From Shewanella sp. TC10 (lineage in GTDB: Bacteria; Pseudomonadota; Gammaproteobacteria; Enterobacterales; Shewanellaceae): DNA of 64,000 nucleotides. The stretch covers positions 62,004-126,003 of the forward strand of contig NZ_VKHR01000003.1 in the NCBI RefSeq assembly GCF_009663145.1, read 5' to 3'. The stretch's first letter is position 1, and every line of letters starts with the position of its first letter. The notes beneath the pieces were generated by a model that worked only from the letters and a program-made list of their open reading frames with translations, had not been told where the DNA came from and searched no databases. Below are positions 35,533 to 45,453 of this stretch, piece by piece. Made by a program: the position numbers and the translations under genes.

Positions 35533-36342
35533 CTATTTATTATTGATCTCTTTACGCAAGCGAGTGATTTCTTCTAGCATCTGCTGTTGGTTCTTTTCCA
35601 TTTGAGCTTGATTCTGCTCCATTCTGGAAATCGCTTTTTCAAGCTCAAACTTGATTTCCTTTTTATTGGTTTCGCTGCGATCGTTCTCATCTGGTGCCAC
35701 AAATACTGACGCCATATAACCTGATATAACACCAAAAAAGCTGACTCCACTCATAATGACAAGGGCACCAATGACATGGCCAACACTACTGACCGGGTAG
35801 TAATCGCCATAACCTACAGTTGAGATAGTCACTAGAGTCCACCATATCGCTTGTTCAGCGGTTTCGATATTGGCGCCTTCAACTCCGGCCTCAACCAATA
35901 AAATCACGATGGAAGCAGTGGTCAATATAAACACCATTGCAAGTAGCAAACTGGCTAAGGTGGTCTGTTTACGTTGTTTTATTAATGGAATAATTAAAGT
36001 GCGACTGACTCTTATCAGCCTTATGACTCTAAGGATTTGGAAAACCCTAGCGATACGCAGTGCTTCGATGGCCGGTATACTGGCAACAAAATCAATCCAA
36101 TGATGGCGAAGGTAAAATTTCTTATTGCTGGCTTTAACTAAACCATAGAAAAATCGCGACATGAAAATGATACATATACTGAGATCAATAAAGAGCAGTA
36201 AGCGCCTAGTTTCAGCATCCACATGACTAAAAGTTAGCACTAACACCACTATAACTGAAAAGAGTGATAGTACCATCATGGCTAAATCAAATGGACTTGG
36301 GCCATTTAATGCCTTCAGTGACCAGCGTTTTTTATCAATCAT
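35533..36342 (-). CDS. Voltage-gated-type potassium channel (ion transport domain)
   Basis: About 269 residues from ATG 36342 behind GGA; a TTG at 36387 is in frame. Six membrane segments are expected: S1-S3, an S4 with regular basic residues (ALRIARVFQILRVIRLIRVSR), then S5, a pore loop with the K+ filter TVGYGD and S6. A cytoplasmic coiled-coil tail (about 220-269, Gln/Glu/Met-rich) probably helps tetramer assembly. It lies at the end of the DUF350/spermidine-synthase/YjfIJK block, separated by a terminator, so it is transcribed separately or by read-through. Confidence 0.9.
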   Translation of the reverse strand: MIDKKRWSLKALNGPSPFDLAMMVLSLFSVIVVLVLTFSHVDAETRRLLLFIDLSICIIFMSRFFYGLVKASNKKFYLRHHWIDFVASIPAIEALRIARVFQILRVIRLIRVSRTLIIPLIKQRKQTTLASLLLAMVFILTTASIVILLVEAGVEGANIETAEQAIWWTLVTISTVGYGDYYPVSSVGHVIGALVIMSGVSFFGVISGYMASVFVAPDENDRSETNKKEIKFELEKAISRMEQNQAQMEKNQQQMLEEITRLRKEINNK

Positions 36343-36416
36343 TTTAAAATCCGTTTCTACAGAATATCTCTGCAATGATGCTATCAATGTAACTGTAACG
36401 AGACAATCTCAAGGTA

Positions 36417-36445
36417 TAAAAAAACACGCTCAAAGGCGTGTTTTA
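36417..36445 (-). terminator. Terminator of the yjfIJK-type operon
   Basis: Minus strand AAAACACGCC-TTTGA-GCGTGTTTT followed by TTT; 60 bases after the last gene of the operon. Confidence 0.88.
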
Positions 36446-36505
36446 TGTCCGATAGATAACATTGTGATATTAAATAACCGCTAAATGTAATTGAAGGCTA
36501 ACAAG

Positions 36506-36829
36506 TTATACATCAACAAACTGGACTAAATCATCTAATACACGTTTTTTGATTTCTAACTGTGCATCTGATTCTAGTCCATACCGTTGAGCTAAAATCG
36601 CATAGTCATCTTGGCTCAGCGAAACAGTTAATCTTGGTCTTTTAGGACGTTTAGTGACTTCTAAACCTAAGATCGAGCGTATTTGATCTGAAGGGCTAAC
36701 ACCTGCATCAAGCGCTGCTTTTCGAATTAAGTATTGAAACTTTTCGTCGAGGTCAAAAGCCACTTGCGTTGCTTTTGCTGCTTGCTGATTTTTAATCCAT
36801 GTATCTGGTAATGATTTACCTTTACTCAT
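36506..36829 (-). CDS. Small protein with two ribbon-helix-helix-like segments
   Basis: A 107-residue protein I cannot assign to a named family. Two segments each look like a strand followed by two helices: ATQVAFDLDEKFQYLIRKAA plus VSPSDQIRSILG (about 20-54), and RLTVSLSQDDYAILAQRYG plus EIKKRVLDDL (about 65-102). This strand-helix-helix pattern with basic residues is that of Arc/CopG DNA-binding proteins. It is the last gene of the yjfIJK-type operon, preceded by AAGGAG 12 bases before the ATG. It is a candidate for the regulator that reads the palindromes in this block (inference). Confidence 0.7.
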   Translation of the reverse strand: MSKGKSLPDTWIKNQQAAKATQVAFDLDEKFQYLIRKAALDAGVSPSDQIRSILGLEVTKRPKRPRLTVSLSQDDYAILAQRYGLESDAQLEIKKRVLDDLVQFVDV

Positions 36830-36858
36830 GACAGGTGTTACTCCTTAAACAACTCAAG

Positions 36859-37515
36859 CTAACTTGCTGGCCAAAACTCACGAATATCAGTGACAGGTCG
36901 ATACAGAGTTAACATCACATCGGTATCGCCACCTTCGTACACTTCAATATCGACTGCTTGGGAATCTTCATTATTAACCAAAGAGTAGCTTTCAAAAGCA
37001 TGTCCACGGTGTTGACTGCTATCATCTTGAGGCGGCTTTTGGCCACGATAATCTTCACGGTGGAAGTATCCAAAACAGCCAAACTCAACTTGATGATATG
37101 CGCTAGCAAGCCAACGGCCGTATTCGCTATCTAATTCATTTGATAATGAAAGGGTAGTGAGCTCTGCATTACCTGGTTCTTCAAAAATTTGACCAAATTG
37201 ATCTAGGTCGAATAGTTGCTCTACAACTGCTCGATTGACTTTGATTGAAAAACTTAAATAGGCTTCATCTTCTTGATGATAAGAGAGGTAAATGGCAGTA
37301 CCACTGTGTCCTCTAAGTAACCACTCACATTGCTGAGAGCGTTCATACTCGTAAGTATGGACTTCTTCAACTTTAAGTTGCTGCCCACGTAGTTGCTCAG
37401 GTAAGGCAAAGCTATCATCAAGGGAGATCATATCTCCCTTGAGAAGCTTATTCACATGATCAAGCTGACGTTTTGGGGCTTCTTTTTTGCCGAATAGGCC
37501 ACTTAGAAATCCCAT
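36859..37515 (-). CDS. yjfK: YjfK-like DUF2491 protein
   Basis: A 218-residue soluble protein that begins MGFLSGLFGKKE, a short amphipathic start, and is acidic and beta-rich afterwards (YLSYHQEDEAYLSFSIKV, YRPVTDIREFWPAS). Its length and place directly after a PspA-like gene and before/after a DUF2170 gene are those of E. coli YjfK. Function is not known; these proteins are linked to PspA-like membrane maintenance by gene neighbourhood. The stop-to-start gap from the PspA-like gene is seven bases. Confidence 0.75.
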   Translation of the reverse strand: MGFLSGLFGKKEAPKRQLDHVNKLLKGDMISLDDSFALPEQLRGQQLKVEEVHTYEYERSQQCEWLLRGHSGTAIYLSYHQEDEAYLSFSIKVNRAVVEQLFDLDQFGQIFEEPGNAELTTLSLSNELDSEYGRWLASAYHQVEFGCFGYFHREDYRGQKPPQDDSSQHRGHAFESYSLVNNEDSQAVDIEVYEGGDTDVMLTLYRPVTDIREFWPAS

Positions 37516-37522
37516 AGCTTAA

Positions 37523-38212
37523 TTAACCTTTCTTCGCTTTAAGGCGATCTAATACTGCATTAGCATTCGACTTTTGCTCACCAATGCCAGCTTCAGCTAA
37601 TTTAGCATGTAAAGACTTGTCACTGTTTTCTTCAGCTAACGCTTCAGAAGCTTGCAAGCGGTCATCAAAAGACTGCTGACGTGCTTTAATGCGCTCTAAA
37701 GAATCTTTCGCATTCATTAGCTTAGAGTTGCTTGAAGCGAATGAGTCAGTGATGGTAGCAGTGGCTTTTTGAACACTTTCAGTAGTCTTTACCATGCTAA
37801 GTTGACGCTGATAATCAGTTAACTGACGTTCAGTTTTCTTCACTAACTCTTTTAAGCGAACCGCGTGTGCAGAGAAGCTAGTGTTTGCTGCTTCTTGGTC
37901 TGCAAGCTCTTGGTCAAGTTGGGCAATTTTTTCAGCCACTTCGATAGCTAATGCTTCGTTGTCTTTTTCAAGTGCTTGAGTTGCGTAACCTTCATGCTCA
38001 GTAATGCTGCGCTTTAGGCGGTCAACTTCACGGCTGGCTTGCATTTCTTTGGCCATAACGTCTGTAAGTTCACGTTTAGCTTTGGTTAAATGCTTTTCAG
38101 CGTCGCGAATTTCTTGTTCAAAAATACGGGTAGAATTTGCATCGACAATGTTTTGGCCGACTTCATTAGCACCACCGCGAAATGCCGTTAAAATTTTATT
38201 TAAAATGCCCAT
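37523..38212 (-). CDS. yjfJ: PspA/IM30 family protein (YjfJ-like)
   Basis: A 229-residue coiled-coil protein. The N-terminus MGILNKILTAFRGGANEVGQNIVDAN is an amphipathic membrane-binding helix, and the rest is long helices with heptads (about 30-190), as in PspA/Vipp1 ESCRT-III-like proteins that polymerise on stressed membranes. The adjacent DUF2170 and DUF2491 genes make this the YjfJ subtype, not the PspF-controlled PspA. A good ribosome site (AGGAG) precedes the start, and the DUF2170 gene ends 11 bases upstream. Confidence 0.88.
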   Translation of the reverse strand: MGILNKILTAFRGGANEVGQNIVDANSTRIFEQEIRDAEKHLTKAKRELTDVMAKEMQASREVDRLKRSITEHEGYATQALEKDNEALAIEVAEKIAQLDQELADQEAANTSFSAHAVRLKELVKKTERQLTDYQRQLSMVKTTESVQKATATITDSFASSNSKLMNAKDSLERIKARQQSFDDRLQASEALAEENSDKSLHAKLAEAGIGEQKSNANAVLDRLKAKKG

Positions 38213-38223
38213 GATATGGCTCC

Positions 38224-38637
38224 TTACTTCAAAAATTCGACAAGTTCGTCGATGACTTCTAAACAGTTATCAGACAATACTGATAATTCTTGTTCAATCT
38301 CTTCCATGCTTGAGGTGACTGATAGTGCACCGTAAACCACATATTTATCATCAATTTTTGCAAATGATGAAAGTGGCATTGGAATGTTTAGCTCCAACAT
38401 GGTTTCAAACATTTGAGTGCGAGTTTCTTCTTTCACTTCGCCCTCATCCCATAAGTAACTGATGCATAAAATTTGGTTGTCAGTTACAGATACGAATACT
38501 GGTAACTCTTCTCGTCCAGCAACGTTGACTTGTAATACTTCGACATCACCGTCAATTGGGAAACAGTCAAACTTTAAACCGGTATGACTTTCATCACCGA
38601 GTTCAGTTAAGTGGTTTGCAATCTTATGGATATTCAT
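38224..38637 (-). CDS. yjfI: YjfI-like DUF2170 protein
   Basis: About 137 residues from ATG 38637 (MNIHKIANHLTELGDESH), six bases behind AAGGA; the in-frame ATG at 38655 lies inside a palindromic operator and has no ribosome site. The protein is acidic, without membrane segments. DUF2170 is the YjfI family, always near a PspA-like gene. Function is unknown; a chaperone or adaptor role for the PspA-like protein is conceivable. It is the first gene of an operon whose promoter is flanked by two GACATATTATGTC sites. Confidence 0.8.
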   Translation of the reverse strand: MNIHKIANHLTELGDESHTGLKFDCFPIDGDVEVLQVNVAGREELPVFVSVTDNQILCISYLWDEGEVKEETRTQMFETMLELNIPMPLSSFAKIDDKYVVYGALSVTSSMEEIEQELSVLSDNCLEVIDELVEFLK

Positions 38638-38650
38638 ATTTTTCCTTGTT

Positions 38651-38663
38651 GACATATTATGTC
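38651..38663. promoter_or_regulatory. Operator A, palindrome GACATATTATGTC
   Basis: A perfect 13-bp palindrome just upstream of the yjfI ribosome site and downstream of the promoter -10, where a bound repressor would block initiation. It is identical to operators B and C. Confidence 0.75.
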
Positions 38664-38673
38664 TTAGGTTTCA

Positions 38674-38701
38674 AAGATAGCACTTAGACATATTATGTCA
38701 A
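38674..38701 (-). promoter_or_regulatory. Promoter of the yjfIJK-type operon
   Basis: Minus-strand TTGACA (38701-38696) and TATCTT (38679-38674) separated by 16 bases. The -35 is a perfect sigma-70 hexamer, and most of it lies inside operator B. Confidence 0.6.
38687..38699. promoter_or_regulatory. Operator B, palindrome GACATATTATGTC
   Basis: Identical to operator A, 36 bases away, and overlapping the -35 hexamer of the yjfI promoter. Confidence 0.75.
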
Positions 38702-38717
38702 GGCTATTTTTGGTAGA

Positions 38718-40466
38718 TTAAAAAAGATTCATCCCTTGATTATCTGACCAAGATGACAAGTGATAATGGTACAGCTGCAATGAGCCAATTCTATTAATCT
38801 CAATATTTTCTTTATCGGCATAAAAATTTCCTGGAAATTCAAATGCACCTTTCATCAAGCCGGGGGTAAGCCAATCTTCGTCGATAGGCAACACTTCATC
38901 ATGAGCAAGGCGCGCTTTGCCATCTAGGCCAGAGCGAGTTGCAATGGTCCAGCCCCATTCGCCAAAGCTAGGCACATTATGGTGGTATTGCTGCACTGCA
39001 AAACCAGCAGACTCAATGGTTTTTCCAACTGATATAAAGGCTTTTTGGGCATGATAAGGTGATGTGGACTGCACAGTCATCGCACCATCAGCACTGAGTA
39101 ACTCAGCTAGCTTGCGATAAAATAAATCTGAGTACAGTTTATTTAAATCAGGATGACTAGGATCTGGCAAATCAACAATGATGACATCAAATTTTTGATT
39201 GTCTTTAATCAGCTTTTCTACGCCATTAAAGGCGTCGTCATAAACCAGATTTACTCTTGGGTCGTTAAGGGCATCTCCATTTAAAGCGAGCATGGCTTTA
39301 CTGACATGAGTTGGCATCTTGATATGAGGTTCACGGAATAAATCCACTAACTTTTCATCTAAGTCCATTAAAGTGACTGACTTAGGTTGCCATTTAAAGA
39401 CTTGTTTGAGTCCAAGACCGTCACCGCCACCAATGATCAATACATTATCTTGTCTCGCGCTCGCAGCCATCGTCGGGTGAACTAAAAAGCTATGGTAGAT
39501 ATGCTCATCAATGCTTGAGAACTGTAATCGTCCATTAATATAGAGTGAGTAAACAGGTGCTTGACCGTTACCACGCAATCTTTCTGTAAAGGTCAGTTGT
39601 TGAAAGCGAGTAGCCTCGGCATAAACCACTTTGTCTTTATAAAGCAGGTTATTAAAATTTTGCTCCCAACTAGGACCATGCATCGCTAATAAAACCAACA
39701 CGCCACTAGCCACAAAGTGGCCGACAAGAATTAATTTTGCCCATCGAATTTGGTGCCAAAAACGCCAAATAAACACAAAGCCAGCGAGTAAGTTAACACT
39801 TGCGGTTAATGCTGCTGCTAATTGAATATCCAGCGACAACATAAACAATACCCAAATCGCAGCTCCCGCACCTGCACCAATGTAATCAGCACCATAAATG
39901 GTACCTGCATTGTGCATGAGGTGTTCTTCAGAAAGTGATTGACGTACACGGGCGATAAGCGGGATTTCCATACCGATCATCAAGCCTAAAATAACCCCCC
40001 AAACATAAGGTAAATATTCACTCATATTTTGTAGGGTGCCAATAAAGCCGCCATCGGGCATATGATCAGGTGGCAAGCCTAATGTATTGGCAATAATTAA
40101 CGGAAGTTGTTGGCCAAAACCAATAACAGCCGCGGTAATTAAAATGGCTAACGAACCGCAAAAAGCGACGATAAGTTCGAGTAAGGCAAATCCCGTAAAG
40201 GCACAACGAATTTTACGTGCGGCAAAAGCGCCAATCCCCATCGACACAATCATAATACCAATCATGGTATAAATTGCGGCTTCAAGTGCGCCTAAGATAC
40301 GACCCGCGTAATGGGATAAAAGGTATTCGTAGATAAGACCGCAGCCAGCAAGGAGTGCCATAATGCCCAGTAAAAGGACATCGTCAAACCAAGCTAAACT
40401 GCGTTTAGAAGGGCTGCTTTGCTTGTTGCTGCCCTCCTGGCCCTTTTCAAGCAAAGTATTATTCAT
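38718..40466 (-). CDS. Membrane-anchored spermidine synthase-like protein
   Basis: About 582 residues from ATG 40466. The N-terminal 230 residues form about seven membrane segments; the C-terminal part is a SpeE-like aminopropyltransferase fold with YSLYINGRLQFSS, the SAM-binding loop VLIIGGGDGLGL, the acidic LMDLDEKLVDL, and VIIVDLPDPSHP with the catalytic-type Asp. The usual GGGDGGxxRE is changed to GGGDGLGLKQ, so activity or substrate may differ from plain spermidine synthase. Its start sits four bases after the DUF350 stop, so the genes are coupled. No SpeD lies in the window. Confidence 0.88.
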   Translation of the reverse strand: MNNTLLEKGQEGSNKQSSPSKRSLAWFDDVLLLGIMALLAGCGLIYEYLLSHYAGRILGALEAAIYTMIGIMIVSMGIGAFAARKIRCAFTGFALLELIVAFCGSLAILITAAVIGFGQQLPLIIANTLGLPPDHMPDGGFIGTLQNMSEYLPYVWGVILGLMIGMEIPLIARVRQSLSEEHLMHNAGTIYGADYIGAGAGAAIWVLFMLSLDIQLAAALTASVNLLAGFVFIWRFWHQIRWAKLILVGHFVASGVLVLLAMHGPSWEQNFNNLLYKDKVVYAEATRFQQLTFTERLRGNGQAPVYSLYINGRLQFSSIDEHIYHSFLVHPTMAASARQDNVLIIGGGDGLGLKQVFKWQPKSVTLMDLDEKLVDLFREPHIKMPTHVSKAMLALNGDALNDPRVNLVYDDAFNGVEKLIKDNQKFDVIIVDLPDPSHPDLNKLYSDLFYRKLAELLSADGAMTVQSTSPYHAQKAFISVGKTIESAGFAVQQYHHNVPSFGEWGWTIATRSGLDGKARLAHDEVLPIDEDWLTPGLMKGAFEFPGNFYADKENIEINRIGSLQLYHYHLSSWSDNQGMNLF

Positions 40467-40470
40467 CAAA

Positions 40471-41370
40471 TTACGCCATTAATGCCGCAAGAATAAGTGC
40501 GATACCGATACTAATAGCAAGCTCAACGGCTGCAACACCAACGTTATGTTGCTTTTCAACTTCATCAGTTAAGTTAATCTGCGCTAACACTAACTTCTTC
40601 ACAATGGCTAACAGCACAGAAAGGGCGATTAACATAATGATAGAGAAGGTTAACCAGCCAATGATATTAACCATGTAAGCTGTTGGGTTATAAATGATGA
40701 AGTGGCTTGCCGCATTAAAGGTAAATGCCATCGCAATCATGTAACCACTATGGCGCACAGCAATAGCAACTTGGCCTTGCTCTAATGCTTTTTGCATTGA
40801 GTCGCCTTGATTGCGTTTAGCGTATTGGTGTTCACGGAATCGAGTTAATACCACTAGCATTAACTGTGAAATTAAGAATGCGGTGAAAATAGCGATAAAG
40901 GTATCAACAGTGATATCTTCAGCCCACATCAATACTGAACGAATAATGATAGCTGTGGCGATTGCTGCGGCTGCATCAACGATGGCTACAGACATATTGC
41001 CATTAACGATTTGGCTGTTCTTGTCTACTTCATTAAGTGCAACTTTGTCATGCAAAAAGCGTCCAAACTTAATCAGCACTAAACCAAATACGCCGTAGCA
41101 AGTCATGCCAATGGCTTCCATTGCATATGAATTTGCAGCTTCACCGGTGATTGCCCCTGTAAGTACAATCCCAAGTGCTAAGACTGCACCCGCAGTACTT
41201 ACACCAAATGCAAAGTTATCGCGATCTGCAAGCTCAGCGCGGCTGTTCACCCTAACGCTCCAACCTTGTAAATAACGCATTAGCGCCAACAAAATGACTG
41301 CGATAGTGATATCGATTGCTAAAATAATAGCGAGGTCTAATGTGAGCCCGAAGTCAGTTAAAAATGTCAT
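40471..41370 (-). CDS. DUF350 membrane protein, two tandem domains (YjfL-like)
   Basis: A 299-residue integral membrane protein with about eight hydrophobic segments in two halves (about 1-140 and 150-299), each resembling the single DUF350 domain of YjfL. The second half starts near AEDITVDTFIAIFTAFL. AAGGAA stands six bases before the ATG. Function is unknown; its partners here are a membrane aminopropyltransferase-like enzyme and a lipoprotein. Confidence 0.82.
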   Translation of the reverse strand: MTFLTDFGLTLDLAIILAIDITIAVILLALMRYLQGWSVRVNSRAELADRDNFAFGVSTAGAVLALGIVLTGAITGEAANSYAMEAIGMTCYGVFGLVLIKFGRFLHDKVALNEVDKNSQIVNGNMSVAIVDAAAAIATAIIIRSVLMWAEDITVDTFIAIFTAFLISQLMLVVLTRFREHQYAKRNQGDSMQKALEQGQVAIAVRHSGYMIAMAFTFNAASHFIIYNPTAYMVNIIGWLTFSIIMLIALSVLLAIVKKLVLAQINLTDEVEKQHNVGVAAVELAISIGIALILAALMA

Positions 41371-41379
41371 GATTTTTCC

Positions 41380-42348
41380 TTATTTGCCTCGGCGTACACC
41401 GCGAGTAGTGCGGCTTGATGAATTACGGAAACTGCTGTCTTTAGAATAGGTAGAACGAAACTTACTTGCGCTTGAGCTTCGGGTACCTGTAGTACTGGCT
41501 TTAGGTGTAGAAGTACTTTGTCTTGATAAACCAGTAGAGCCAGTACGCGATTTCGCATAAGGGCTATTAAATTGTCGACCTTGAGAGTTAAAGGCTTTTT
41601 TGGTGTTCTCATAGGTACGATTTTGTGCCGTAGCTTGTTTTGGTGATGTGTACCGTGACCGACCAACATCATTATAGTAACTGTAACCACGATTATTCGA
41701 CCAGCGATCGTAACGAACGGGGTTCATGACGTTGGAAAACATCGAGTACATGCCATACCAAGCCCAAAAAGACATACCGCTTGAGTTAGATTGCCAGCTA
41801 CCGTAAGAAGGGTTACCGACTAACTGGCTACCTGCGCCAAAGTCTTCATTGCCATTTGCCAGTGCAGCCGCTTCACGACTGATAGAGTTAACTCGGGCTA
41901 ATTGACCAGCAGATAAATCCGCAACCACATTGACAGGATCCGAAAGCATATCGTTATAGAGGCTAGGATCTGCAGCGTGGTAGATGTTCTGAGCTTCATC
42001 GAGCTGTTGATCTAAATCGACAAAGTTAGCTGAACTTGAAAGTTCACTCACACGTCTTTGTAAAGACTGAAACATAGGCCCAGAGGTACCAGCATCTTTT
42101 GCCAGTTCATCTAACAGCGGCACTAAATCAGGCTTACTTTGTTTGAGCAAATTGGTGTATTGGTTCAGCAATGTAGCATTACGCAACTCACCACCATTTA
42201 GCATCGAGCTTAATTGACCCAAACGTTGTTGAGACAATTGCTGATACTGAGCAATTTTTTCAGGTCTGTCGTCACCACAGCCTGTTAATGTAAAACACAA
42301 TATTATCGTTGAAAATACTGCGAGGACACGGGGAAGCATGCCAGCCAT
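41380..42348 (-). CDS. Lipoprotein with Ser/Arg/Thr-rich C-terminus
   Basis: A 322-residue exported lipoprotein: signal to LCFTLTGC (Cys24), then a helical region at about 28-160, a short Trp/Tyr-rich hydrophobic stretch (SFWAWYGMYSMFSNVM, near 195-212), and a low-complexity basic tail rich in Ser, Thr, Arg and Gly ending TTRGVRRGK. Start ATG 42348 follows GGAG. I know no named family for it; the basic tail loosely recalls DUF1190 lipoproteins of the yjf cluster. It heads the operon with DUF350 and the spermidine-synthase-like gene. The tail may bind an anionic surface such as lipopolysaccharide or peptidoglycan (speculative). Confidence 0.7.
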   Translation of the reverse strand: MAGMLPRVLAVFSTIILCFTLTGCGDDRPEKIAQYQQLSQQRLGQLSSMLNGGELRNATLLNQYTNLLKQSKPDLVPLLDELAKDAGTSGPMFQSLQRRVSELSSSANFVDLDQQLDEAQNIYHAADPSLYNDMLSDPVNVVADLSAGQLARVNSISREAAALANGNEDFGAGSQLVGNPSYGSWQSNSSGMSFWAWYGMYSMFSNVMNPVRYDRWSNNRGYSYYNDVGRSRYTSPKQATAQNRTYENTKKAFNSQGRQFNSPYAKSRTGSTGLSRQSTSTPKASTTGTRSSSASKFRSTYSKDSSFRNSSSRTTRGVRRGK

Positions 42349-42516
42349 GTTTTCTCCAAATGGTTAGAAATTAATCTATAAATATAATAACAAACCGCAT
42401 AAATATGTGCTCAATAACGACCAAATATTTATACGGTTAGGTATAACTACTATACAGGTTATAGTAATCTTAATGGCATATTCAATTAAGACTTACATTA
42501 AACTTTTGTTATGAAT

Positions 42517-42546
42517 GGTATAGCACATTTTGACATATTATGTCGA
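42517..42546 (-). promoter_or_regulatory. Possible promoter of the lipoprotein-DUF350-spermidine synthase operon
   Basis: Minus-strand TCGACA (42546-42541) and TATACC (42522-42517), 18 bases apart, with the -35 overlapping operator C exactly as in the yjfI promoter. Leaves a 5' leader of about 160 bases. Confidence 0.4.
42532..42544. promoter_or_regulatory. Operator C, palindrome GACATATTATGTC
   Basis: Third identical copy of the 13-bp palindrome, between the divergent lipoprotein operon and glnE. It is 3.8 kb from operators A and B. Confidence 0.75.
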
Positions 42547-42594: not shown

Positions 42595-45453
42595 ATGCAA
42601 AACCAAAGTAACAGTGCCTTATCTGCCGAATTATCTGACATTGCAGAACGTTACTGGTTAAGGCTATGTGATGAGTCACCTGAGTTAGCCGATAATTTGA
42701 ATAAGGTTCAACAGCAAGAGTTAAAGTCAGTCTTTGGCTTGAGTGATTACATTGCTGAGCAGCTATGCCGAAATCCTCAATGGATTAGTTTATTATTCAA
42801 TGGATTAATCAATGACGTTGATAGACAACTGTTTGCCGACGAACTTGACGCTGAGTTATCTTCTTTAACCTCCGAGGAGGCGGTTAAATCTGCTTTGCGT
42901 CAATACCGAAACTTGCAAATGGTGCGACTCGCATGGCGAGATTTTAAAAATTATGCAGATGTCGAATCTTCATTATTAGACTTGTCGGCACTTGCTGAAG
43001 CCTTAGTCATTGCCGCCCGAGATTGGTTATATAAAGAAATGTGCCAGCAATTAGGTACGCCAACCGATGATGAAGGTAATCCGCAACCTTTATTGATCCT
43101 TGGCATGGGCAAGCTAGGCGGTCGTGAGCTCAACTTCTCATCTGATATCGATCTCATTTTTACCTTTCCAGAGCATGGCGAAACAAAAGGCGGACGTCGT
43201 GCCCAAGCTAATCAGCAGTTTTTCATCAGAATGGGTCAGCGTTTAGTCAATTTACTAGATCAAGTTACCGTTGATGGCTTTGTATTTCGGGTTGATATGC
43301 GGTTGCGTCCATACGGTGAAAGTGGTCCATTGGTAGTGAGCTTCAGTGGCCTGGAAGACTACTATCAAGAGCAAGGTCGTGATTGGGAACGCTATGCCAT
43401 GGTTAAGGCAAGAGTTCTTGGGCCTTGGACTCAATATAGTGATGATTTACATGATTTATTAAGGCCTTTCATTTACCGCAGATATATCGACTTTTCTGCA
43501 ATTGATTCCCTCAGAAAAATGAAACAATTGATTGCCCAAGAAGTACGTCGTCGTCAATTGACCGATAACATCAAACTAGGTGCTGGCGGGATCCGAGAAG
43601 TCGAGTTTGTGGTACAAAGTTTTCAACTCATTCGCGGAGGCAGGGAGCCGTCATTACGCCAGCAAAGTCTATTTGGTGCTATTGATACTTTATATAACCT
43701 CGGTCAGCTTGAATACCTTGCTGTAGATGATTTGAAACACAGTTATATTTTATTAAGACGCGTTGAAAACCTACTCCAAGCTATAGACGATAAACAGACG
43801 CAAACTTTGCCAGATAATCAAGTTGATTGGCAGCGTTTATGCTTTGCGATGCAAGTAGAAAATGAAGCTGAACTAAGGTTAAAAATTGCTGATGCAATGT
43901 CCCGAATTCACGGACACTTTAAAGAGACTGTGGGCGGAGAAGATGAGCAAGAACAAAGTGAGCACTGGACAAGTCAACTGTGGGTTATTGAAGACCCAGA
44001 TAATGCGGCTGCGCTATTAGATGAACATTTAGTTGATGATGTAAATTTTTGGCCTGAACTCATCGAGTGGCGTTCTATTACCACTAAACGCGCTATTGGT
44101 CCCAGAGGTCGCGAAACACTTGAAAAACTGATGCCAAGGTTGTTGTCTGAACTACTAGAACAACCTATCCCTAGTGCGGCATTAAAAGCAGTTTCGGGTG
44201 TATTGGAGCAAATTTTAACTCGTACCACTTATCTGGAGCTCTTATGTGAAAACCCAGGAGCTCGCCAACAGTTGATTAGCTTATGTTGTGCAAGCCCTTG
44301 GATTGCTCAAGAGCTGGCTAACTTCCCTATGCTATTGGATGAGTTAATCGATCCCTCACAACTATATGACACAACATCGGTAGATGATTACCCAAGTGAG
44401 TTAAGGCAGTACTTATTACGGGTGCCAGAAGATGACATGGAAATGCAAATGGAAGCGCTACGACAATTCAAATTGTCCCAGCAGCTCAAAATTGCCGCTG
44501 CTGATGTGACTGGCGTTTTACCTGTTATGGAGGTAAGTGATCATCTCACTTTCTTAGCGGAAGCAATTATTGAACAAGTTGTGTTACAAGCTTGGCATCA
44601 AGTGGCTGCTCGTCATGGCGTGCCAGAGGGAACTAGCCCAGATAAAATGGGCTTTGCAATTATCGGATACGGAAAATTAGGCGGTATTGAACTGGGCTAT
44701 GGTTCAGATTTAGATTTAGTGTTCCTGCGCAATAGTCTCAATACAGGTGAAACCGATGGCAGAAGACCTATCGGGATTGGACACTTCTACTTAAAGTTGG
44801 CACAACGAATTGTGCATCTATTTGCTACTCGTACAACCTCTGGCGAGCTTTATGAAGTGGATATGCGCCTTAGACCTTCAGGGGCGTCTGGGCTACTGGT
44901 CACCGAGGTTGAACAATTTAAAGAGTACTTGCAAACAGAAGCGTGGAACTGGGAGCATCAAGCATTAGTTCGTTCTCGTTTTGTTTATGGCGATAACCAA
45001 TTAGCTGCACGCTTTAGTGAAATAAGAACTGAAATTTTATCTCAGCCCCGTGACCTTCCGGAGTTAGCAAAGTTAGTCAGAGATATGCGAATAAAAATGC
45101 GCGATCACTTACTAAAAGTGAGCAATGACAAGTTTGATTTAAAGCAAAGTGCTGGTGGTATTGCCGATATTGAATTTATGGCTCAATACTTGGTCTTAGC
45201 AAATGCGAGCCAGTATAAAGAGTTAGCAATATGGTCTGATAATGTCAGGATTTTTCAAGTGTTAGCTGAACTCGAAATTTTACCAGTGATGACAGCGCAG
45301 CATTTAACGCAAACCTATTGCTGGTTGAGGGATGAAAATCACCGATTAACTCTACAACAACTCAAAGGCCAAATTGACGCTGATGTTGCTGATAGAAATG
45401 TTTCTCAGGTTATCGATATTTATCAACATATCTTGGGGACAGAAGCTGATTAA
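42595..45453 (+). CDS. glnE: Glutamine synthetase adenylyltransferase/deadenylylase
   Basis: A 952-residue bifunctional enzyme that adenylylates and deadenylylates glutamine synthetase in response to PII. It has two nucleotidyltransferase domains, each with the G-(M/Y)-G-K-L-G-G motif and a D-x-D pair: [21 protein letters not shown] near 165 and [21 protein letters not shown] near 690, with PII-UTase-like helical domains after each. Length matches E. coli GlnE (946). It is a single gene. Its upstream region contains operator C about 50 bases before the ATG, so the neighbouring regulon could touch it. GlnK-AmtB lies 9 kb away in the same window. Confidence 0.96.

Follow-up and report, generated by a model that had tools for sequence, protein, structure and literature searches.

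This text concerns a 13-bp palindrome, GACATATTATGTC, that recurs in a stretch of 64,000 nucleotides of Shewanella sp. TC10 (contig NZ_VKHR01000003.1, positions 62,004 to 126,003; referred to as the window) upstream of two neighboring operons, and that is interpreted here as the operator of a regulon. Both operons lie on the reverse strand. The yjfI operon (35533-38637) starts with yjfI itself (38224..38637), a DUF2170 gene whose product has been assigned a CesT/Tir-like chaperone domain (Ravi et al., 2024; PMC11237479), and continues with the gene for a PspA/IM30-family protein of the YjfJ type (37523..38212) and the gene for a DUF4178-like protein (36859..37515), for which the Pfam match (E 0.027) stays under the cut-off, DUF4178 being named for this operon type in the same paper. 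Then follow a 107-residue protein (36506..36829), the candidate regulator, and an ion channel of the Ion_trans type (35533..36387), which is probably encoded by the last gene of the operon. The second operon consists of the genes for a lipoprotein (41380..42348), a DUF350 (YjfL) membrane protein (40471..41370) and a spermidine synthase-like protein with an N-terminal extension (38718..40469).

Palindromes and promoters of the two operons

A preliminary description of the window had reported three identical palindromes, and exact copies with zero mismatches are indeed found at 38651-38663, 38687-38699 and 42532-42544. As the central base of the palindrome is unpaired, every copy reads GACATAATATGTC on the opposite strand. 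Among the perfect palindromes of the window that have 6-bp arms and a 1-nt centre (30 in total), only GACATANTATGTC recurs, and with up to two mismatches 7 strand-matches were counted versus a mean of 2.03 in 100 shuffles (largest value 6). A second-order Markov model derived from the window predicts 0.0007 copies of GACATATTATGTC and 0.0006 copies of GACATAATATGTC on one strand of 64 kb, which, scaled to 4.99 Mb, amounts to approximately 0.05 plus 0.04 exact copies (about 0.1), whereas 5 are observed in the genome (4,990,574 bases in 129 contigs); the early judgment that a threefold recurrence by chance is very unlikely is thereby borne out. Besides the three copies in the window, exact copies occur at position 6533 of contig C3 and at position 41510 of contig C40, the latter accompanied by a single-mismatch copy at a distance of 50 bp. 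Another copy with one mismatch was detected at C57:80842 (L007). The five exact copies fall into four promoter regions, namely those of yjfI (two copies), lipoprotein/glnE, nfeD and htpX, so that, instead of being scattered over many unrelated places, all of them adjoin genes for membrane proteins or for the yjfI/lipoprotein block. The operator consensus is GACATA-W-TATGTC with the core GACAT-N3-ATGTC.

The yjfI promoter appears to be of the sigma70 type (38674..38701, reverse strand; TTGACA-16-TATCTT with a TG before the -10 element) and is kept in 68 aligned loci. In agreement with the preliminary description, two palindromes flank it: the distal operator (38687..38699, reading GACATAATATGTC on the coding strand) takes in the final 4 bases of the -35 element and much of the spacer, corresponding to about -32 to -20 as counted from the -10 element, and the proximal operator (38651..38663) begins 10 bases after the -10 element, in the start region, where it likely includes the transcription start or the early leader. 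Judging from these positions, a protein bound to either operator would be expected to block RNA polymerase. An in-frame ATG of yjfI at 38655 lies inside the proximal operator; the ATG at 38637, preceded by an AAGGA-like ribosome binding site, is the likelier start.

The third operator (42532..42544) is located upstream of the lipoprotein-DUF350-speE operon, with glnE on the opposite side; the lipoprotein gene starts at 42348 and glnE at 42595. As had also been pointed out early on, it overlaps a -35-like hexamer, TCGACA (42546-42541), which is separated by 18 bp from TATACC (42522-42517) and, together with a TG, forms a probable promoter of the lipoprotein operon as read from the sequence (42517..42546, reverse strand). 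Across 77 loci a TG and a TATA are favored on this side, the promoter having one operator and a weaker -35 element than that of yjfI, and on the glnE side no conserved -10 element was seen in the aligned loci. The third operator is therefore preferably assigned to the lipoprotein operon, and a role at glnE would be possible too.

Conservation of the operator and its association with the ribbon-helix-helix-like gene

Of 77 Shewanella genomes sampled evenly across the genus, 76 contain GACATAWTATGTC, with 4-10 copies each, and 2 contain the reversed pattern used as control. For a closer look at individual promoters, the best 80 of 335 relatives of the 107-residue protein (Shewanella and Parashewanella) were taken as named loci. 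Two copies are present upstream of yjfI in all 80, 33-38 bp apart (34 bp in 68 of them), and a third copy further upstream, on the lipoprotein side, is present in 77; one of the three loci that do not have it (L312) is truncated by a contig end. In the 68 yjfI promoters of equal spacing many flanking positions around the operators vary. The sites in this alignment were picked by exact match, and their invariance there is thus by construction; the real test is the scan of the named loci, which permitted one mismatch and encountered none, while the reversed pattern with up to one mismatch occurred once in 1.29 Mb. The operator is thus conserved upstream of orthologous operons, which the preliminary description had named as a point to check.

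Which protein might read the site? The operon itself offers a candidate in the 107-residue protein, the N-terminal half of which resembles ribbon-helix-helix (RHH) proteins. Of 295 genomes of the order, 92 contain a relative of this protein (E <= 0.01), and a profile detected relatives in 13 of 369 genomes of the class (E <= 1e-6). In the order set, 69 of the 91 genomes that have the RHH gene contain the site, compared to 13 of the 204 that lack the gene (Fisher p ~3e-34, a value that ignores relatedness); one genome with a partial RHH match (G347, E 0.002) was set aside from this strict count, and with it included the table reads 69/23/13/190. At least two copies occur in 64 genomes with the gene versus 2 without it, and the reversed control is found in 5 of 295. 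Among DUF2170-positive genomes, 69 of the 91 RHH carriers have the site, compared to 3 of the 35 non-carriers, indicating that the site follows the RHH gene rather than yjfI. The same comparison speaks against assigning the site to yjfI instead of the RHH protein. The class set of 369 genomes gives a similar picture, with the site in 9 of 13 carriers versus 4 of 356 others (reversed control 9 of 369) and in 7 of 11 carriers when the two that belong to the order of the window are left out. At the genus level all 19 genera with the RHH gene hold the exact site, compared to 8 of the 80 other genera, one of the 19 (g12 of family f11) counting through a single stray exact copy in G182, its yjfI site being a centre variant. 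Within genus g8 one of 17 genomes (G194) has the RHH gene and only this genome has sites, and within genus g74 the only one of three genomes that has the gene is again the only one with sites.

In the order set 22 RHH carriers do not have the exact site: 21 are members of family f11, and the remaining one is G316. The pattern GACATWWWATGTC was searched in 22 f11 genomes, in G316 and in 21 of the 35 DUF2170-positive, RHH-negative genomes. In all 22 f11 genomes the centre variant, GACATTTAATGTC or its complement, lies 26-35 bp from the DUF2170 match, and G316 has a single centre-variant copy away from yjfI. The RHH-negative genomes of the order set that carry the exact site have a single copy in 11 cases, two copies in G156 and four in G183. 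In G183 the contig ends about 150 bases after pspA, and the seeming lack of the RHH gene is probably an assembly gap.

Within Shewanella the RHH gene was sought in 25 of the site-counted genomes; 24 have both gene and site (including G001, G022 and G060) and one, G063, has neither. This sole Shewanella genome without sites yielded no match to the RHH protein and none to the PspA paralogue; its HtpX is present and 76% identical, and the region upstream of htpX contains nothing closer than three arm mismatches, which is what random stretches give as well. G105, which is of the same family, likewise has no RHH gene, no site and no PspA paralogue, and its HtpX gene has a site-less upstream region.

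In distant members of the class, four loci (L375 in G663, L378 in G597, L373 in G554 and L356 in G536) have two operators spaced 15-18 bp start to start instead of 30-39 bp, and such nearly adjoining operators may allow cooperative binding of neighboring dimers. Two other loci (L371 and L372, in G560 and G433) are yjfI-pspA-DUF4178-RHH-lipoprotein-DUF350 operons without a recognizable site, in which the operator may have changed together with the regulator.

Putative targets beyond the block and the candidate regulator

Outside the window the copy on contig C3 is located upstream of a gene for a 156-residue NfeD-family protein (Pfam NfeD, E 3e-11), followed by a putative SPFH/stomatin-like reading frame. 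On contig C40 the copies precede htpX (NCBIfam HtpX, E 1e-129), and a pepE-like gene flanks them on the opposite side. To these, 80 further-site loci from 24 genomes (13 Shewanella and 11 others) were added, representing part of the sites of each genome; 79 were counted, as L218 is site-less. A neighbor was defined as a gene starting within 420 bp and was named by BLAST against labeled representatives, several of them taken from the loci under study, without a random-intergenic control; where a second gene was also near the site, the labeled gene was counted. The neighbors are nfeD in 17 loci, htpX in 14, a gene for a bPH_5 protein in 7, nhaA in 6, SPFH in 4, AIM24 in 3, and yqiJ-like and PspA genes in 2 each, so that eight membrane-related families, grouped post hoc, account for 55 of 79. 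The remaining loci have a protein of about 100 residues with the look of an exported protein (4), small membrane proteins of two kinds (2 each), glnE/lipoprotein (1), yjfI (1), other genes (11) or no gene start within 420 bp (3). Pfam confirmed one representative each of bPH_5, AIM24, SPFH, NhaA, PspA, PspC and NfeD; the yqiJ-like proteins gave no Pfam match and are named by resemblance, as is a flotillin beside one of them.

The bPH_5 membrane protein follows the operator in seven Shewanella loci (L157, L169, L176, L183, L188, L189 and L233; Pfam E 7e-9 in one). The exported-looking protein is found behind the operator in four loci of family f6 (L192, L197, L199 and L203) and may be a regulon member. 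In G232 the site precedes pspA and then pspC. In G098, where the RHH gene and yjfI are on different contigs, sites are found at nhaA, at a PspA paralogue (two copies, 36 bp apart), at a yqiJ-like gene and at htpX. The occurrence of the same site at several unlinked promoters and its conservation across species are what is expected of a regulon, and the initial suggestion of a regulon operator is in this way extended by the probable unlinked membrane-gene targets nfeD and htpX.

What kind of protein is the candidate regulator? Its C-terminal half is of uncertain fold, with a strand-like stretch and two helices, and the window's protein has no match in Pfam. Searches of the sequence against Pfam, NCBIfam, PHROGs and the PDB gave weak matches or none, among them RelB/DinJ with E 0.065. 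Of 37 relatives, 3 matched an Arc-like PHROG (best E 0.0016) and 12 weakly matched PF25760, a phage family of unknown meaning (best E 0.0024). In structural comparisons, residues 15-57 of the model aligned with Arc, CopG, PutA, AmrZ and NikA with Z 3.8-4.4, weak by the tool's own note, with 38-43 residues at an rmsd of 2.2-3.2 Å for the first four, and with Foldseek nothing matched at E <= 0.001. The AlphaFold monomer model of the whole protein and the model of its C-terminal half contain helices and no strand; modeled alone, the C-terminal half forms two helices after a conserved RPRLTVSL-like stretch. An RHH fold of the 107-residue protein is thus weakly supported by the models, and for this operon type an RHH transcription factor was described as the product of the last gene in some cases (Ravi et al., 2024; PMC11237479).

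The gene neighborhood and the presence of an RHH gene in the operon are, according to that paper, already published, and its CesT/Tir-PspA-spermidine synthase-DUF350 operon group comprises the same gene set; in the window a channel gene comes after the RHH gene, and the account of this operon group in PMC11237479 describes neither an operator nor targets outside the operon nor the anatomy of the promoter. Two related systems differ in their promoters. The bac operon of Pseudomonas aeruginosa also contains a YjfI-PspA pair (BacA being the YjfI homologue), yet for bacA a sigma54 site was proposed in the relevant part of PMC10948618 and not the operator seen here. The Psp response controlled by PspF and sigma54 likewise involves a PspA-family protein, and in G232 the operator stands before pspA-pspC; the yjfI promoter, in contrast, looks sigma70-type with a TG-extended -10 element, its sites lie over the core promoter and the proposed regulator is a repressor. 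Arc/MetJ/CopG-type RHH repressors share with the candidate the small size, an N-terminal half like that of Arc and CopG, a short symmetric operator and a site at the own operon, but the candidate, for which binding is a prediction, is tied to membrane genes at several loci, the fold of its second half is uncertain and it finds no Pfam match.

A full-text search with both 13-mers returned one unrelated plant paper, and searches by gene names and topics led to the operon paper and to no operator for this regulon. The main text of a paper on Shewanella regulons (PMC3223726) contains none of the terms htpX, psp, GACAT, ribbon-helix-helix, CopG and envelope, and the portion of PMC13086221 that was covered has nothing on the operator. 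The operator, the target list and the link to nfeD, htpX, nhaA and AIM24 were thus not found in the literature searched and could be new, as the preliminary description had supposed; regulon databases and a Shewanella cis-regulatory map (Nucleic Acids Research, NAR, 2008), either of which might contain the motif, were outside the search. The example accessions of the operon paper, AAN56744-AAN56747, we take to be those of S. oneidensis MR-1; its main text does not contain the word Shewanella. A literature search with MR-1 locus tags found nothing.

A putative repressor of membrane-integrity genes

Taken together, the data make it quite probable that the operator is read by a dedicated transcription factor, most likely the RHH-like protein encoded at 36506-36829, acting as repressor of a membrane-integrity regulon; what was observed are the sites and how far they are conserved, the layout of the promoters, the co-occurrence and the neighboring genes, whereas that this protein binds the site, that it represses and which signal induces the genes are inferred. 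Several observations weigh against this reading. The structural Z values are below 5 throughout and there is no Pfam match, and the C-terminal half, considered as a possible second RHH unit, is matched by a mixture of SAP, NikR, CopG, Arc and homeodomain entries (Z 2.0-3.3). Four of the 13 carriers in the class set (G433, G560, G590 and G640) have no exact site genome-wide, and the site occurs in 13 of 204 RHH-negative genomes of the order set, a slightly higher rate than that of the reversed control (5 of 295). The centre variant occurs in 4 of the 21 RHH-negative genomes searched, in none of them near DUF2170 by coordinates, as stray copies (the reversed control matches in 5 of 21), and its genome-wide count in f11 is not clearly above the reversed control, which has matches in 8 of 22 genomes, so that the f11 evidence consists in the position at yjfI only. 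In G098, with up to one mismatch allowed, no site was detected in the vicinity of the RHH gene (L117) or in the 2.2 kb preceding the lipoprotein-DUF350-speE-yjfI-pspA operon (L379). Finally, the site is 134 bp from htpX in the genome of the window, and in many sampled Shewanella the site at nfeD lies further upstream of a TATAGT-like element, a position possible for activation.

An alternative would be that the operator is real but read by another factor co-inherited with the yjfI-pspA-RHH operon, the RHH protein doing something else. The co-occurrence is only correlational, all RHH-positive genomes of the order also have DUF2170, and the RHH gene of G098 stands without a site. We consider this explanation unlikely, since the sites track the RHH gene among the DUF2170-positive genomes and since the other factor would have to be gained and lost with the RHH gene each time, in a pattern that recurs in other families of the class and in genus g8. 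Moreover, a short symmetric operator and a small regulator encoded in the operon fit RHH repressors. That the RHH protein, bound to the sites, is mainly an activator, or acts as a repressor of some genes and an activator of others, appears quite unlikely: the sites at nfeD and at htpX of the window genome would be compatible with an activator, but the yjfI promoter, with its consensus -35 and TG-extended -10 elements, should need none and has its sites in the -35/spacer and start regions, and at htpX the centre of the site is 2-61 bp ahead of the listed start in 14 further loci. A chance or mobile repeat, an RNA hairpin or a nucleoid-protein site without regulatory meaning has a negligible probability and is rejected, since, although short AT-rich palindromes arise by chance and single, double or fourfold copies exist in RHH-negative genomes (the fourfold case probably reflecting an assembly gap), the site is found in 76 of 77 Shewanella genomes compared to 2 for the control, the pair stays exact in 80 of 80 loci amid variable flanks even when one mismatch is tolerated, and like genes neighbor the site in different families.

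How could such a repressor work? The RHH-like protein would be an autoregulated repressor. At the strong, extended -10 promoter of its own operon it would occupy the -35/spacer and the region of the start, and it would have additional sites at a small number of unlinked promoters. The repressor would keep low the levels of the PspA paralogue and the YjfI chaperone, the ion channel, the lipoprotein-DUF350-SpeE proteins, NfeD with its SPFH neighbor and HtpX, to which relatives would add NhaA, AIM24, bPH_5 proteins, YqiJ-like proteins and, once, the canonical pspA-pspC. Membrane damage would then release the repressor. It could be speculated that PspA or YjfI carries the signal to the regulator, since the regulator and these proteins are made together. 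An action of YjfI or PspA on the regulator may also be suggested by Pseudomonas aeruginosa, where the absence of BacA raises its partners, as reported in PMC10948618. A more tentative proposal, open to real doubt, is an alternative Psp-like wiring in marine Gammaproteobacteria, in which an RHH repressor gated by the PspA paralogue and/or YjfI sensing inner-membrane damage would take the place of PspF and sigma54, and whose regulon would comprise PspA, SPFH/NfeD, quality control by HtpX, a DUF350-SpeE polyamine branch, the ion channel and NhaA.

PspA paralogues, NfeD/SPFH, HtpX, DUF350 proteins and membrane-bound spermidine synthases are widespread, mostly without known trigger or common purpose. 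With one operator linking such membrane genes a shared purpose, perhaps a single membrane-repair program, becomes testable; a small regulator without Pfam match gains a candidate function, and the site is strict enough to list its probable targets from sequence.

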